DNA of 64,000 nt, from positions 2,356,001 through 2,420,000 of the forward strand of contig NZ_CP066339.1 of NCBI RefSeq assembly GCF_016406125.1, written 5' to 3'. Shown one piece after another: positions 1-37,123 of the stretch. Under the pieces are notes generated by a model that ran no database searches, was not told where the DNA came from, and worked only from the letters and a program-made list of their open reading frames with translations. How positions within the stretch are numbered: position 1 is the first letter of the stretch; each line of letters starts with the position of its first letter. This DNA is from Alicyclobacillus sp. SO9. GTDB taxonomy: Bacteria > Bacillota > Bacilli > Alicyclobacillales > Alicyclobacillaceae. The position numbers and the translations under genes are program-made.

Positions 1-150
1 GTGACGCTTTTGGCAGATGTCACGGAAGACTTTGACGATGCAGGGCAGGGAGAGGTCGAGCAGGCGAACTTTCAGCAGGTCTTTGCCAATGCGTTACAGG
101 TTGTGCGTAAGAAATACGGCCGGGATGACCGCAAGGAGGATACGCAGTAA
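1..150 (+). CDS. C-terminal end of a fla-operon protein, probably FliO/FliZ (partial)
   Basis: Frame 1 is open from the first base to a TAA at 148-150, giving the last 49 residues of a protein that starts outside the window. The tail is hydrophilic and charged (it ends KKYGRDDRKEDTQ). The stop overlaps the ATG of fliP by one base, so the two are translationally coupled, and the fliP ribosome binding site AAGGAGG lies inside this gene. In Bacilli the gene directly before fliP is fliO (called fliZ in B. subtilis), a small membrane protein that helps FliP assemble. The identity rests on position only, because the visible part has no diagnostic motif. Confidence 0.5.
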   Translation: MTLLADVTEDFDDAGQGEVEQANFQQVFANALQVVRKKYGRDDRKEDTQ

Positions 151-29809: not shown

Positions 29810-31639
29810 TTACGCTTGAACTTTGCGCTTAGCGAGTTTGTCGCGCTCGCCCTTGTTCAGGACACGCTTTCTCAAACGCACGTTCTCCGGCGTGATTTCA
29901 CACAGTTCGTCGTCTTCTATATAGGTCATAGCCTGCTCTAGAGACAACGTATGGGCCGCTTTCAGTCTGACGGTTTCGTCTTTTGTAGCAGAGCGCACGT
30001 TTGTCATATGCTTTTGTTTGACTACGTTGACGGTTAAATCATTTTCGCGGGTGTGTTCGCCTATTATCATACCCTCGTAGACGGTTGTTCCGGGAGTGAC
30101 AAACATGATTCCGCGATCTTCCAGGTTTTGCAGGCTGTAGCTGGTGGTGACGCCGCCTTCATTGGCAACCAGCACGCCCTGTCTGCGCGTAACCACATCG
30201 CCGCGCCAGTCTCCGTATTCCAAAAAGCGATGGTGGAGAATGCCGTATCCTTTGGTCATCGTCAGAAACTCTGTACGAAAGCCAATTAATCCTCGTGACG
30301 GTACGTGGAATTCAATCCGTGTAGTTTCACCTGACGCAGACGGCTCCATATGCACCATTTCACCTTTTCGTACCCCCAGTGCTTCTACGACAGAACCGAC
30401 ACTTTCAGAAGGTACGTCAACAACCATGAACTCAATGGGTTCTAAAACTCGAGAGCCTTCATTATGAAGGATAACCCGAGGCTTCGACACCTGCAGTTCA
30501 TAGCCCTCGCGGCGCATGGTTTCAATCAGAATGGACAAGTGCAGTTCGCCGCGGCTGGCCACGAGGAATGCGTCAGCATCATTGGTTTCGGTGACTCGCA
30601 GGCTGACATCCGACTCCAGTTCTGTCATGAGCCTCTCACGAAGTTTCCTGGATGTGACGTGAGTGCCTTCCCTGCCAGCGAGCGGGCTGTCATTGACCAT
30701 AAAAGTCATTTCCAAAGTGGGTTCATCGATGGTGAGCAGCGGCAGTGCTTCCGGATGCTCTGGATGACAGACCGTCTCACCTACAGTGATGTCCGCAATG
30801 CCGGCAACTGCCACAATATCACCGGCGTAAGCTTCGTTTACCTCGACGCGTTTCAGACCTTCAAAGGAGAACAGCTTGGCGATACGTGCCCGGCTCGGGT
30901 TGCCTTCGCGTTTCATGACAATGATGTTGTCACCCGTGCGAATGATGCCTCGGGCAACACGACCGACGCCAATTCTGCCCAGATAGTCATTGTAGTCGAG
31001 CATGGTCACCTGCCATTGCAGCGGGCCCTCGGTATCTACCTCTGGCTGTGGAATATGGTTGATGATGGCGTCAAACAAAGGCTTCATGTTTTCTCCCTTT
31101 GTGTCCACATCATTCGTAGCTACACCAGCAAGCGCGGAGGTATATACGACTGGAAATTCACATTGTTCCATGGAAGCGCCCAATTCAATAAACAAATCGA
31201 GCACCTCGTCAACCACTTCCGAAGGTCTGGCATTGGGACGGTCCATTTTATTGACAACAACGACAGGTACAAGTCCTTGCGCCAATGCCTTTTGCAGGAC
31301 AAACTTTGTCTGCGGCATAACCCCTTCAAAAGCATCCACGACCAAAAGTACTCCGTCCACCATTTTCACAATCCGTTCGACTTCGCCGGAAAAGTCCGCG
31401 TGTCCCGGAGTGTCAACTATGTTGATGCGGGTGTCTCCGTAGGGAATGGCGGTGTTCTTGGCGAGAATAGTAATGCCTCGTTCCCGCTCCAGGTCATTGG
31501 AGTCCATCGCCCGCTCTGCCAAATGTTCATGTTGATGAAACAAGCCGGATTGTCGTAACAGTTGATCGACTAGGGTGGTCTTGCCGTGATCGACGTGTGC
31601 GACAATGGCAACATTACGAAGGTTAATACTTGCTTTCAT
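29810..31639 (-). CDS. typA: Ribosome-associated GTPase TypA/BipA
   Basis: 609 residues. Translation-factor GTPase domain with P-loop [28 protein letters not shown] and NKMDR; EF-G-like domains III and V follow, with FRTEFLTMTKGYGI and the BipA-specific C-terminal domain (TYIEDDELCEITPENVRLRK). It acts in ribosome assembly and in cold or stress adaptation. The start ATG has AAAGGAGC 7 bases upstream. It is transcribed divergently from rimP. Confidence 0.97.
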   Translation of the reverse strand: MKASINLRNVAIVAHVDHGKTTLVDQLLRQSGLFHQHEHLAERAMDSNDLERERGITILAKNTAIPYGDTRINIVDTPGHADFSGEVERIVKMVDGVLLVVDAFEGVMPQTKFVLQKALAQGLVPVVVVNKMDRPNARPSEVVDEVLDLFIELGASMEQCEFPVVYTSALAGVATNDVDTKGENMKPLFDAIINHIPQPEVDTEGPLQWQVTMLDYNDYLGRIGVGRVARGIIRTGDNIIVMKREGNPSRARIAKLFSFEGLKRVEVNEAYAGDIVAVAGIADITVGETVCHPEHPEALPLLTIDEPTLEMTFMVNDSPLAGREGTHVTSRKLRERLMTELESDVSLRVTETNDADAFLVASRGELHLSILIETMRREGYELQVSKPRVILHNEGSRVLEPIEFMVVDVPSESVGSVVEALGVRKGEMVHMEPSASGETTRIEFHVPSRGLIGFRTEFLTMTKGYGILHHRFLEYGDWRGDVVTRRQGVLVANEGGVTTSYSLQNLEDRGIMFVTPGTTVYEGMIIGEHTRENDLTVNVVKQKHMTNVRSATKDETVRLKAAHTLSLEQAMTYIEDDELCEITPENVRLRKRVLNKGERDKLAKRKVQA

Positions 31640-31686: not shown

Positions 31687-31715
31687 AAAATACCATGGGG
31701 AACGGGAATCTGCAA
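31687..31715 (-). promoter_or_regulatory. Promoter of typA
   Basis: On the reverse strand: TTGCAG (31715-31710), 17 bases, TATTTT (31692-31687), with TGG before the -10 (extended). It lies 48 bases upstream of the typA start, back to back with the rimP promoter; the two -35 boxes are 9 bases apart. Confidence 0.65.
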
Positions 31716-31724
31716 GAACAGGAA

Positions 31725-31753
31725 TTGCAGGTTTGCTCATCGAGTGCTATAAT
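31725..31753 (+). promoter_or_regulatory. Promoter of the rimP-nusA-infB operon with an inverted repeat over the -10 box
   Basis: TTGCAG (31725-31730), 17 bases, TATAAT (31748-31753), with TGC before the -10 (extended). The perfect inverted repeat GTGCTAT-A-ATAGCAC (31744-31758) is centred on the -10 hexamer. This may be a repressor operator, or simply favourable sequence around an extended -10. Transcription is expected to start near 31760. Confidence 0.8.
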
Positions 31754-31787
31754 AGCACTGTTAGGCTTCGGATAGGTTGTGACGACA

Positions 31788-31819
31788 AGAGTGGGGAACA
31801 AACCCACTCTTTCATTTTT
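31788..31819 (+). terminator. Leader hairpin with T-rich tail (probable attenuator of rimP-nusA operon)
   Basis: AGAGTGGG (31788-31795) pairs perfectly with CCCACTCT (31803-31810), loop of 7, followed by TTCATTTTT. It lies about 30 bases after the predicted transcription start and 86 bases before rimP, so it would end transcripts before the operon. It fits an attenuator for the transcription-factor operon. A leader hairpin upstream of rimP-nusA is a known theme in proteobacteria, but no specific family is claimed here. Confidence 0.65.
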
Positions 31820-31905
31820 GAAAAAGGCGATTTACGTCTTCAAAAGGTAACCGAAGCAATGGTAACCGAAGCAGAATATTGTATCAACAGCGAGGAGGAA
31901 CACCT

Positions 31906-32379
31906 GTGCCCAGTGAACGCGTAACTGACATCGTGGAACGAATGGCACTGCCAATCCTGGAGCAGGAGGGGCTGGAACTGGTTGACGTCGAGTACAAGAA
32001 AGAAGGTCCAAACTGGTATCTGCGTGTCTTCATTGACAAAGACGAGGGTATCGACATAGACGATTGTACCCGTGTCAGCGAGCAGCTCTCAGATTTACTT
32101 GATGAGGCTGATCCCATTCAAAATGCCTATTTCCTCGAGGTCTCGTCTCCTGGCGCTGAGCGTCCTCTAAAGAAACCGGCTGACTTTGAGCGTGCTGTTG
32201 GCAAGAAGGTTTTTGTCTCCCTTTATGAGCCGCTTCAAAAACAGAAAAACTACGAGGGAAAATTACAACAGTTCGATGGTCAGCGACTAGAACTCGCCTA
32301 TTTTCAGAAAGGCGTGCCAAAACAGATTGCAATACCATTGGAAAAGGTAGCAGCGGCAAGGTTGGCCGTAGACTTATAG
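31906..32379 (+). CDS. rimP: Ribosome maturation factor RimP
   Basis: 157 residues from GTG with GAGGAGG upstream. N-terminal domain with LELVDVEYKKEGPNWYLRVFIDK and DDCTRVSEQLSDLLDE; SSPGAERPLKKPADFER marks the junction to the C-terminal SH3-like domain. It assists 30S assembly. It heads the operon rimP-nusA-ylxR-ylxQ-infB-rbfA-nrnA-truB-ribF. In-frame sequence further upstream includes two copies of GGTAACCGAAGCA (from 31846 and 31862) and is judged to be leader. Confidence 0.96.
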   Translation: MPSERVTDIVERMALPILEQEGLELVDVEYKKEGPNWYLRVFIDKDEGIDIDDCTRVSEQLSDLLDEADPIQNAYFLEVSSPGAERPLKKPADFERAVGKKVFVSLYEPLQKQKNYEGKLQQFDGQRLELAYFQKGVPKQIAIPLEKVAAARLAVDL

Positions 32380-32462: not shown

Positions 32463-33587
32463 ATGAACGTCGATTTTATTGAGGCGTTAGATCAACTTGA
32501 GAAGGAAAAAGGCATTGACAAGGACACCTTGTTGGAAGCCATCGAGGCAGCGCTCATTTCCGGGTACAAAAGGAACTTCAACTCTGCACCCAATGTCAGG
32601 GTGGAAATTGGCAGAGACAGCGGTGAAGTTCATGTGTATGCTCGCAAAAATGTGGTGGAGTCTGTCAACGACAACCGCTTGGAAATTTCGTTAGACGCGG
32701 CCGTGGATATTGATGGTTCTTATCAGGTCGGAGATGTTGTGGAGATTGAAGTAACACCTCGGGAGTTTGGACGAATTGCTGCGCAAACGGCTAAACAGGT
32801 GGTGACGCAGCGCATTCGAGAAGCTGAGCGGTCCATTATTTATACGCAGTTCAGTGACAGGGAAGAAGAAATTGTCACGGGTGTTGTGCAGCGTGTTGAC
32901 TCGAGAGTGGCCTATGTCGATCTCGGTCAGACAGAAGCGGTCATGCCCTCTGCGGAACAAATGCCGACAGACAAGTTTCGACCGGGAGACAGGGTGAAGG
33001 CTTTCATTACCCGGGTTGAACGGACGACAAAAGGACCGCAGGTGGTCTTATCGAGGACACACCCCGGACTATTAAAGCGGTTGTTTGAACTGGAAGTGCC
33101 CGAAATTTTCGAGGGTGTGGTCGAGGTCAAGTCTGTGGCTCGGGAAGCGGGGCACCGTTCGAAGATTGCTGTGTACTCGGCCGATCCCGATGTCGACCCA
33201 ATTGGAGCCTGCGTCGGTGCCAGAGGCATTCGCGTTCAAACGGTGGTAGGCGAGCTTCACGGAGAGAAAGTGGATATCATTAAGTGGAGCGACGACCCGG
33301 CTGAGTATGTCTCGAGTGCCCTGTCTCCTGCCAAAGTTACCGAGGTGCATATTCAGGAAGAAGAGAAGACCGCTCGTGCTATTGTACCGGACCATCAGTT
33401 GTCTCTTGCTATCGGCAAGGAAGGCCAAAATGCACGTCTTGCGGCCAAGTTGACCGGATGGAAGATTGACATTAAAAGCGAAGCCCAAGCTGCTGAAATT
33501 GGCATGTTTGGCCGGATTTCAGACGATGCAGATGATGAAGACGACGGTTTTGGTACATTGGCAGACGACTGGCTGAGCGAGCCGTAG
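32463..33587 (+). CDS. nusA: Transcription termination/antitermination factor NusA
   Basis: 374 residues. N-terminal RNA-polymerase-binding domain (about 1-125), S1 domain (about 135-200, VTGVVQRVDSRVAYVDLGQTEAVMP), then two KH domains (GACVGARGIRVQTVV and LAIGKEGQNARLAAKLTGWKIDI). The acidic tail is short and lacks the C-terminal AR repeats of E. coli NusA, as usual in Firmicutes. It modulates pausing, intrinsic termination and antitermination. GGGGGAG is about 10 bases upstream. Confidence 0.98.
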   Translation: MNVDFIEALDQLEKEKGIDKDTLLEAIEAALISGYKRNFNSAPNVRVEIGRDSGEVHVYARKNVVESVNDNRLEISLDAAVDIDGSYQVGDVVEIEVTPREFGRIAAQTAKQVVTQRIREAERSIIYTQFSDREEEIVTGVVQRVDSRVAYVDLGQTEAVMPSAEQMPTDKFRPGDRVKAFITRVERTTKGPQVVLSRTHPGLLKRLFELEVPEIFEGVVEVKSVAREAGHRSKIAVYSADPDVDPIGACVGARGIRVQTVVGELHGEKVDIIKWSDDPAEYVSSALSPAKVTEVHIQEEEKTARAIVPDHQLSLAIGKEGQNARLAAKLTGWKIDIKSEAQAAEIGMFGRISDDADDEDDGFGTLADDWLSEP

Positions 33588-34258: not shown

Positions 34259-37123
34259 TTGACGAAACTGAGGGTCTACGAGTACGCAAAGCAACTGAAC
34301 ATGTCGAGCAAGGAAATCATTACAATACTAAATCGATTGGAACTTCCTGTTGCCAATCATATGAGTGTGATGGATGACAACATGGTAGATAAGGTCGAGC
34401 AGTTTTTTAAAGATGTAAAAGCCAAGGCGGCACAACGCCATGCTTCAGAGGTGGAGAAAGAGCTGAAAGAAAAACAAAAGGCAAGGGAACGTGCGGCCAG
34501 AGAAGCGGCTGCGCAAGAGAAACGAGAACAGGCGCGCGCGATGCGGGATGCTCAGGCGGCGTCACGTCAACGTTCACAGACGCAATCTGGTGCTGCGGCT
34601 GCATCTACGACTACTGATAAGCCGGCACAAAGGTCTGTGCCTGCAACGGGGGTGAACAAAACGGCAGAGGTCTCATCCCATAACTCGGCCGCTGCAGCAT
34701 CTGCGACACCAAGTGCTGCCAGTCCAGTAAATCGGGAGCATTCGGGAGATACACAAGGTTCGAGTCAAGGGAGCCAAAACCAGAATCAGACCGCACCTGA
34801 AAACAGGGAGTCACAGCAAGGACAACGCCCGCAGCAGGGTCTGCAGAACCAAGCGGATCGGCAGGGGCAGCGTCCGTCGCAGTCAGGTCGCCCGTCACAG
34901 TCGGGTGGTCCGTCGCAGTCAGGTCGTCCGTCACAGTCGGGTCGTCCGTCACAGTCAGGTCGTCCGTCGCAGTCAGGTCGCCCGTCGCAGTCAGGTCGCC
35001 CGTCGCAGTCAGGTCGTCCGTCGCAGTCAGGTCGCCCTGACAACCGAAGAGACGGTGGACAGCGTCCGCAAGGCGGTCAAGACTATAGGAGCAATGGCGG
35101 CGCAAATGACCGAAACCGACAATCCCGACCCAATGCAGGAGGAACTCCGGCAAGAACTACAGCAACTGCCGGTCAGGCCGGTCAAGGAGCGCGCGGTGCC
35201 AGTGGTCAGGGCAGCAACGGCAAGCGTAAACCTGATAATCGAAACAAAAGTCAGTACCAAAAGAAAGAAAAATTTAATGAAGACAAGTTGATGAATCGCT
35301 CGGGTGGACGCCGCCGCGGACGGGGCAATCAGAATCAGCAGCAGCAAAGGCCGCAGAACAAACCGGCACCGCCGAAGAAGATTTCGGTGGAAGGTGCGCT
35401 TCCGGTGGGCGAATTTGCAAGAATGCTGCGCAGAGAAGCATCTGAAATCATTAAGAAACTGATGTTCCTTGGTATTATGACGACCATCAATCAGGAGATT
35501 GAAACGGACGCCATGGAGCTGATTGCCGGGGAGTACGGAGTCGAGATGGAAGTTGTGGAGCCGGTAGACGAAGAGGTCGTAGAGATGTTGTTCGTTGAGG
35601 ATAAGCCCGAGGACCTGGTGGCTAGACCTCCTGTTGTCACTATTATGGGCCACGTCGATCACGGTAAAACGACACTCCTCGACGCGATTCGCGACAGCCG
35701 TGTTGTAGCTTCCGAATCAGGCGGAATCACCCAGCACATCGGTGCTTACCAGGTAGAGGAAGACGGCCGCAAGGTAACATTCCTTGACACTCCAGGGCAC
35801 GAGGCATTTACAACCATGCGCGCGCGGGGTGCTCAGGTAACGGATGTAACGATTCTGGTTGTCGCGGCAGATGACGGCGTCATGCCACAGACTGTCGAAG
35901 CCATTAACCATGCCAAAGCAGCCAATGTGCCCATTATTGTAGCGGTGAACAAAATTGATAAGCCTGGTGCAAACTCCGACCGTGTAAAACAAGAGTTGAC
36001 CCAGTATGAACTGGTTTCTGAAGAGTGGGGCGGAGATACAATCTTCGTTGAAATTTCAGCATTGAAGCGCGAGGGCCTGGATACTCTGTTGGAAATGGTG
36101 CTGCTTGTGGCAGACGTTCAGGAGTTAAAGGCAAATCCTGCAGCGCGGCCGCGGGGTACGGTTATCGAAGCCGAACTGGATAAGGGCCGCGGTCCTGTTG
36201 CTACAGTTCTCGTCCAGAATGGAACACTCCGTGTGGGCGACGTTGTCGTAGCAGGGACCAACTTTGGACGCGTTCGTGCCATGGTCAACGATCACGGGCG
36301 GCGTATTCAAGAGGCCAGCCCGTCAACACCAGTAGAAATACAGGGTTTAAATACGGTTCCGAGTGCGGGCGACTTGTTTGTGGTTTATGACGATGACCGT
36401 TCTGCAAGAAACGTTGTTGACAGAAGGACAACCAGGGAACGAGCTGAGCAACTGGAAAACACCTCACGCGTTACGCTGGATGACTTGTATCAACGGATTC
36501 AGGAAGGAAATATGAAGGACCTCAACGTCATTGTGAAAGCCGACGTACAAGGGTCCGTCGAGGCCCTGGTTCAAGCCATCGAGAAAATTGAGGTGGAAGG
36601 GGTTCGCGTCAAAGTCATTCACAAGGGAGCCGGCGCTATTACAGAAAGTGACGTTTCTCTTGCCAGTGCGTCCAACGCAATTATCGTCGGTTTCCACGTG
36701 CGTCCGGATGTGAATGCCAAGCGTGCTGCAGAAGCCGAAAAGGTAGAAGTCCGGCTGCACCGTGTGATTTATAATGCCATCGAAGAACTGGAATCCGCCA
36801 TGAAAGGCATGCTTGACCCTGAGTACAAAGAAGTGGTTCTTGGTCACGCTGAAGTGCGTGAAGTCTTTAAGATTTCCCGGGTCGGGACAGTAGCCGGCTG
36901 CTTTGTCAAGGAGGGGAAAGTCACGCGTGACTCGGAAGCCCGGTTGATTCGAGACGGTGTGGTCATCTACGAAGGAGCGCTTGATACTCTGAAGCGCTTT
37001 AAGGACGATGCCAAGGAAGTCGCGCAAGGTTTTGAGTGCGGGGTTACATTGGAGAAGTTCAACGACATCAAGGTTGGAGATATTGTAGAGGCCTTTAAAA
37101 TGGAGGCCGTTAAGGCAACCTAA
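34259..37123 (+). CDS. infB: Translation initiation factor IF-2
   Basis: 954 residues from TTG with GTGGGGGT upstream. The IF2_N domain ([22 protein letters not shown]) is followed by a charged helical region (about 55-100), a long disordered region (about 100-370) rich in Gln, Ser, Gly and Arg with tandem repeats, and the second IF2_N domain ([19 protein letters not shown], about 380-440). The GTPase domain starts with GHVDHGKT at 464-471, and IF-2 domains II-IV end with the fMet-tRNA-binding C2 domain. B. subtilis IF-2 has 716 residues; the extra length here is the N-terminal linker. Confidence 0.98.
34871..35032 (+). repeat. Nine 18-bp tandem repeats inside infB
   Basis: Nine in-frame copies of an 18-bp unit encode RPSQSG (the third copy reads GPSQSG), within the disordered linker of IF-2. 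Copies differ mainly at third positions (CGT/CGC, TCG/TCA, GGT). Repeat expansion or contraction would keep the frame and change linker length by six residues. The reverse strand is also open across the array, a side effect of the repeat. Confidence 0.95.

Follow-up and report, generated by a model that had tools for sequence, protein, structure and literature searches.

A conserved attenuator in the rimP-nusA-infB leader of Alicyclobacillus sp. SO9, through which NusA probably limits its own operon

How is the operon that encodes NusA controlled at its own 5' end in Alicyclobacillus sp. SO9? We analysed a stretch of 64,000 nucleotides (hereafter the window) of this 5.29 Mb genome, in which the promoter and leader of the operon lie between typA on the minus strand and the rimP operon on the plus strand (Table 1). 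Pfam assignments gave the plus-strand order rimP-nusA-ylxR-ylxQ-infB-rbfA and three more genes, with ylxQ assigned through its L7Ae domain. The NusA product is closest to that of Alicyclobacillus pomorum (81% identity, the highest among the 80 loci returned), with A. shizuokensis (80%) and A. kakegawensis (79%) next among them. Within infB, the region encoding the N-terminal part of IF2 (about 34880-35040) contains a run of GRPSQS-type repeats, and its opposite strand also has open frames. We argue below that the leader is probably an attenuator through which NusA limits the expression of its own operon; the attenuator itself is already known, and the new detail is a possible two-part design of the leader.

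Table 1. Features of the typA-rimP intergenic region and its flanking genes (window positions).
Feature	Position	Strand	Basis
typA (bipA), divergent neighbour	29810-31639	-	Pfam BipA_C 2.6e-46
-10 of typA promoter, TGG-TATTTT on minus strand	31687-31692	-	sequence
-35 of typA promoter, TTGCAG on minus strand	31710-31715	-	sequence
-35 of rimP promoter, TTGCAG	31725-31730	+	sequence and family columns
palindrome AGTGCTAT-A-ATAGCACT over -10	31743-31759	.	only this genome among those compared
extended -10 TGCTATAAT	31745-31753	+	TG-extended in 41/41 family loci, window included
conserved 5' element GTTAGGCTTCGGATAGG, core 31760-31774	31760-31776	+	column identity, fixed spacing
terminator (attenuator) hairpin AAGAGTGGG-GAACAAA-CCCACTCTT, rimP-leader	31787-31811	+	pattern, fold, conservation
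interrupted T-run TCATTTTTG after hairpin	31812-31820	+	sequence
Shine-Dalgarno-like GAGGAGG of rimP	31892-31898	+	read from sequence
rimP, GTG start, first gene of operon	31906-32379	+	Pfam RimP_N 1.2e-31
nusA	32463-33587	+	Pfam NusA_N 5.6e-45, KH_5, S1
infB	34259-37123	+	Pfam IF-2 8.9e-42

The original prediction had placed a near-consensus promoter, TTGCAG-17-TATAAT, in front of the operon. Its elements and spacing are present, with the TATAAT at 31748-31753 and a TG at 31745-31746, one base before the -10, but "near-consensus" was too strong: the -35 matches TTGACA at just three of six positions, and the promoter is for this reason better called an extended -10 type. It was absent from a generic promoter scan, which demands four of six matches in each hexamer. 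Among 38 distinct family sequences, the first four columns of the -35 are invariant and the last two have identities of 0.53 and 0.47. On the minus strand, typA has an equivalent arrangement of its own, TTGCAG-17-TATTTT with a TG before the -10, and the inverted repeat CTGCAA..TTGCAG (31710-31730) consists of the two back-to-back -35 elements of typA and rimP. A minus-strand TTGnnn-16..18-TAnnnT with a TG before the -10 was identified in 32 of the 41 family loci, and six of the nine loci without it have no typA within the fetched stretch.

The same prediction had noted a perfect inverted repeat, GTGCTAT-A-ATAGCAC, centred on the -10 of the rimP promoter, and had proposed it as a possible operator. 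The repeat is present at 31744-31758, and its arms even extend to eight bases when A31743 and T31759 are counted. Such symmetry around a single central base is what a repressor blocking the promoter might be expected to bind, and around a fixed TGnTATAAT, given random flanking bases, arms of at least seven would arise with a chance of about 0.0009, a figure for a site that had been picked by eye out of 64 kb. Half of the palindrome, however, is merely the extended -10; the window is alone among the 41 family loci in having arms of at least seven, with arms of at least five in only three (window included); and the genome holds one perfect copy, its 12 sites in all at up to two mismatches equalling the 12 of a reversed-pattern control. 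Neither conserved nor repeated above the control, the palindrome is most improbable as an operator. A second reading takes the palindrome as a bidirectional promoter, in which TGCTATAAT is joined by TGCTATTAT on the opposite strand, the latter directing RNA towards typA. TGnTATnAT can indeed be read on both strands, and bidirectional promoters with a common -10 are reported, in the accessible text of PMC12825309, from all prokaryotes; against this, the symmetry is absent in relatives, and since the minus strand offers typA a separate promoter-like arrangement, in 32/41 loci as given above, the palindrome need not serve it. We regard this reading as distinctly unlikely and the palindrome, judged by its sequence distribution, as a private oddity of this genome.

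Downstream of the promoter, the original prediction of an 8-bp perfect hairpin about 30 bases past the expected start was right in substance and place, the stem beginning 27 bases past the expected RNA start at 31760, although its size is nine pairs rather than eight. Because a pattern scan of 10 kb returned fewer terminator-like sites than shuffled sequence (6 vs 9.7, sd 3.3), pattern matching alone would not make this hairpin significant. Folding does: the segment 31780-31822 reaches -15.9 kcal/mol (z -4.33, none of 200 shuffles as good), and its reality is settled by conservation. The pattern GAGTGGG N2-10 CCCACTC has a single occurrence in the host genome, at the rimP leader.

To place the hairpin among its relatives, DNA upstream of rimP was compared from 41 genomes of the family (all those searched, window included), 14 of the sister family, six further class members and 79 named Firmicutes loci, the last being the 80 returned without L109, which gave no rimP hit. 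The motif [AG]GAGTG[GA]G is present in the 450 bases that precede rimP in 41/41 family, 14/14 sister-family and 6/6 other class genomes and in 76/79 named loci, a set that partly overlaps the others (L032-L036 belong to the same family, and L043, L049 and L050 seemingly to the sister family). Only one of the three misses, L096, is genuine; the sequences of L093 and L099 extend 15 and 0 bases upstream. Thus, of the two elements whose conservation in relatives the original prediction had proposed as a check, the hairpin is kept and the repeat is not, and the leader attenuator that it had suggested gains support from a hairpin motif present in every family genome. Once three duplicates are removed, 38 distinct family leaders remain, in which the stem arms AAGAGTGGG and CCCACTCTT are 97-100% identical in each column (window included), with a mean identity of 0.997 over both arms and 0.41 in the loop. 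Eight of the nine stem pairs never vary in 29 distinct sequences from the 41 loci, indicating that sequence, and not only pairing, is held in the stem. This near-invariance exceeds the needs of a plain terminator, so the stem may have a reader beyond NusA-assisted hairpin formation. In three sister-family leaders (L124, L126 and L127), about 75 extra bases separate the promoter from the same hairpin.

Across the class, AGAGTGGG N2-10 CCCRCTCT matches 129 of 151 genomes. The exact pattern is missing in the other 22, including all ten sampled from family f17, all six from f27 and all four from f6, in which one leader (L142) has the variant GAGTGAG. Of 40 class-wide matches, hand-picked and fetched, 37 are followed by rimP, and each of the three without rimP is one of two matches in a genome that has two. 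These three hairpins (L156, L157 and L161), of the form AAAGAGTGGG...CCCACTCTTT, are perhaps ordinary terminators, and their genomes also have a rimP-leader. The T-run is more variable than the stem, reading CGATTTATG or TGATTTATG in many relatives, with a mean column identity of 0.84. A criterion of a hairpin with at least five T around the stem end was satisfied in 32/41 family loci, among them L118 by way of another hairpin, and returned nothing in nine of the 41; these nine and L118 fail at the stem because their T-runs are poor. Judged by sequence, such leaders may terminate weakly or may need more than NusA.

These features match a known element. Naville and Gautheret (2010, PMC2965389) called the rimP-leader the most ubiquitous of attenuators and NusA its best candidate regulator, and the accessible text gives a stem GGGc...gCCC and mentions no larger conserved element. 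As in that description, the hairpin studied here lies in the 5' leader of a Pfam-identified rimP-nusA-infB operon, with GGG in its 5' arm, CCC in its 3' arm, a T-stretch after it and no visible antiterminator, and its distance of 94 bases from rimP falls within the 4-130 bases given there. The weaker positions differ (the lower-case c that follows GGG and the g that precedes CCC are g and a in the window) and were not counted as required for membership; a further difference is the conserved 5' element at a near-fixed distance described below. Its sequence identifies the hairpin as this rimP-leader attenuator, in a further genome. The Rfam family RF01770 (rimP; 102 model positions), by name the leader of the same operon, gave no match at its cut-off in the window or the host genome, and matched only E. 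coli among 14 control genomes.

Two experimental systems resemble this leader. According to the accessible text of a 2025 review (PMC12288461), B. subtilis NusA is autoregulated by NusA-stimulated termination in its own 5' leader; the terminator here lies in the leader of the same operon, and by analogy would depend on NusA likewise. In S. agalactiae, as far as the accessible text of PMC4448216 reports, RNA-seq of rimP-nusA found a short and a long RNA from one start, with termination 31 bases downstream, and the authors proposed NusA feedback. As in that gbs0413-gbs0418 leader, a short RNA would be expected here to end at an intrinsic terminator before rimP-nusA-infB, although about 60 bases after the start as opposed to 31.

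Three other readings of the leader were considered. A terminator/antiterminator switch could operate if CTTCG near the 5' end paired with CGAAG in the 5' arm, and in 17/29 distinct leaders the arm is involved in the optimal fold of the 5' part. However, these structures do not outscore shuffled sequence (z -1.38 to 1.05 over the 29), CGAAG is lacking from the window and from one genus (g5), both of which retain CTTCG, and RNAalifold finds the terminator alone. On account of the shuffles and the missing partner we rejected the switch, which we hold to be very unlikely. In the B. subtilis nusA leader, too, an antiterminator is reportedly not needed.

The second reading treats the 3' arm CACTCTTT as a boxA at which binding of NusB-S10 prevents the hairpin, and was tried because CTCTTTGA, which occurs in some family leaders, resembles boxA. 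The bases after CTCTTT nevertheless differ between families, the window reading CTCTTTCA, and GGTTCCTTGAAAACT, which we take to be the boxA of the family's rRNA leaders, is common to seven of nine of these and differs from the 3' arm (the remaining two are G026, with a variant, and G002, whose stretch was anchored wrongly). The host's own rRNA leaders carry TGTTCTTTGAGA, closer to GYTCTTTAANA, the consensus that the accessible part of PMC5725501 assigns to gamma-proteobacteria; this leaves a little room for a reading that we would otherwise consider hardly credible. Thirdly, an ATG lies 27-32 bases after the start of the stem motif in 39/41 family and 10/14 sister-family loci. A leader peptide was set aside: the peptides share little outside one genus, and the window itself lacks this ATG.

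Two further observations concern the stretch between the attenuator and rimP. A frame of ten residues, TTG AAA AAG GCG ATT TAC GTC TTC AAA AGG TAA (31818-31850), overlaps the T-run close to where those 39/41 family loci have their ATG, and a short direct repeat, GGTAACCGAAGCA-AT-GGTAACCGAAGCA, occupies 31846-31873; GAAGCA-type repeats are present in the leader L008 too.

We identified a second conserved part of the leader, GTTAGRCTTCGTATA, which the original prediction had overlooked. It lies at the expected 5' end of the RNA, which in the family would begin with GTTAGRCTTCGTATAGG. The gap from the -10 to this 5' element is six bases in 36/41 family loci and seven in 5/41, and the distance from the element to the stem motif is 27-30 bases in 41/41, and 28 in 34. 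Its mean column identity over the 38 distinct family leaders is 0.91, compared with 0.41 for the six preceding bases, 0.67 for the ten that follow and 0.38 in the region upstream of the -35. A genus that reads CC in the last two columns lowers these to 0.61 and 0.66. GCTTCGT, a stretch of the element that also occurs in the host's own rRNA leader, was discarded as a link between the two, being absent from the other properly anchored rRNA leaders of the family.

A pre-stem region was obtained from 111 of the 114 loci that belong to neither the family nor its sister family, and 74 distinct leaders were left once near-duplicates had been removed. In 19 of the 74 leaders, from other Bacilli, the 45 bases preceding the stem contain GGNAATACT, compared with a mean of 0.085 and at most one in 200 shuffled sets; the pattern was chosen after viewing the sequences and its exact form is missing in 55/74, making its breadth uncertain. 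In these Bacilli it is a likely counterpart, by sequence, of the family's 5' element. The related pattern TTGGWAATACTN2-4RATA has 40 matches in 37 of the 151 class genomes, at least 12 of which lie 27-36 bases before a rimP-leader stem. A class-wide regulon was not seen among the other matches (28 at most), which are near the reversed-pattern control (23), nor was one seen in the host genome, where the 5' element has one full match and, that one included, 22 at up to three mismatches against 62 in the control. Among these near-matches GCTAAGCTTCGGACAGG recurs 11 times, for example at C1:60603-60619, perhaps as part of a mobile element. No description of the 5' element was found in the literature searched, a search that had most subscription papers outside its reach.

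Because RNAalifold found no consensus fold for the 5' element among 29 distinct leaders, we read it as the contact for a protein, most likely NusA. It presumably resembles the NusA-bound boxC RNA of M. tuberculosis (ACU...AUA), a likeness that we did not use as evidence. The parts described above, in this order and at these spacings, conserved and with a hairpin core present once in the host genome, compose a leader that would work as follows. RNA polymerase would start near 31760 from the extended -10 promoter and, about 60 bases on, would meet the hairpin and its interrupted U-run, a suboptimal terminator at which NusA would raise termination. With NusA plentiful, most transcripts would end near 31820, giving a leader RNA of about 60 bases; with NusA scarce, the polymerase would read through into rimP-nusA-infB. 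No competing antiterminator would be needed. Just upstream of the hairpin, the 5' element would provide the contact of the nascent RNA with the S1 and KH domains of NusA. NusA-dependent terminators are said to have an interrupted U-run, and the one found here accordingly counts in favour of NusA.

Alternatively, the hairpin could set a fixed level of readthrough by attenuation without NusA feedback, the 5' element serving initiation or RNA stability. The element does begin at the expected +1 and keeps a near-constant distance from the -10, as such a role would have it, but its distance to the stem is kept as well (27-30 bases, as above), and NusA feedback on this operon is, in the accessible literature, reported for B. 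subtilis and E. coli and proposed for S. agalactiae. Fixed readthrough is therefore, in our view, unlikely. The autoregulatory loop that the original prediction called plausible gains support from the conservation of the hairpin and from what has been published on the leader in other bacteria, and by analogy with these systems NusA feedback very probably acts at this leader.

A more specific, and tentative, proposal concerns how NusA would find this RNA. The rimP leader of Bacilli could be a two-part RNA, in which the 5' element and the near-invariant hairpin together form a docking site for NusA that raises termination above that at ordinary weak terminators. We think it possible, if somewhat doubtful, that GUUAGRCUUCGUAUA in the family and GGWAAUACUnnnGAUA in several other groups, starting at the first transcribed base, are forms of one such part. 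NusA positioned at the RNA exit channel might then recognise its own message, the distance between element and hairpin being nearly fixed, although here too we lean slightly against rather than for the idea. If the 5' element is a NusA site, it would answer the question left from 2010 of what protein recognises this unusually conserved leader, and would explain how an essential general factor singles out its own transcript. It would also provide a natural RNA target for the KH domains of NusA in Bacilli and a compact reporter of NusA activity.
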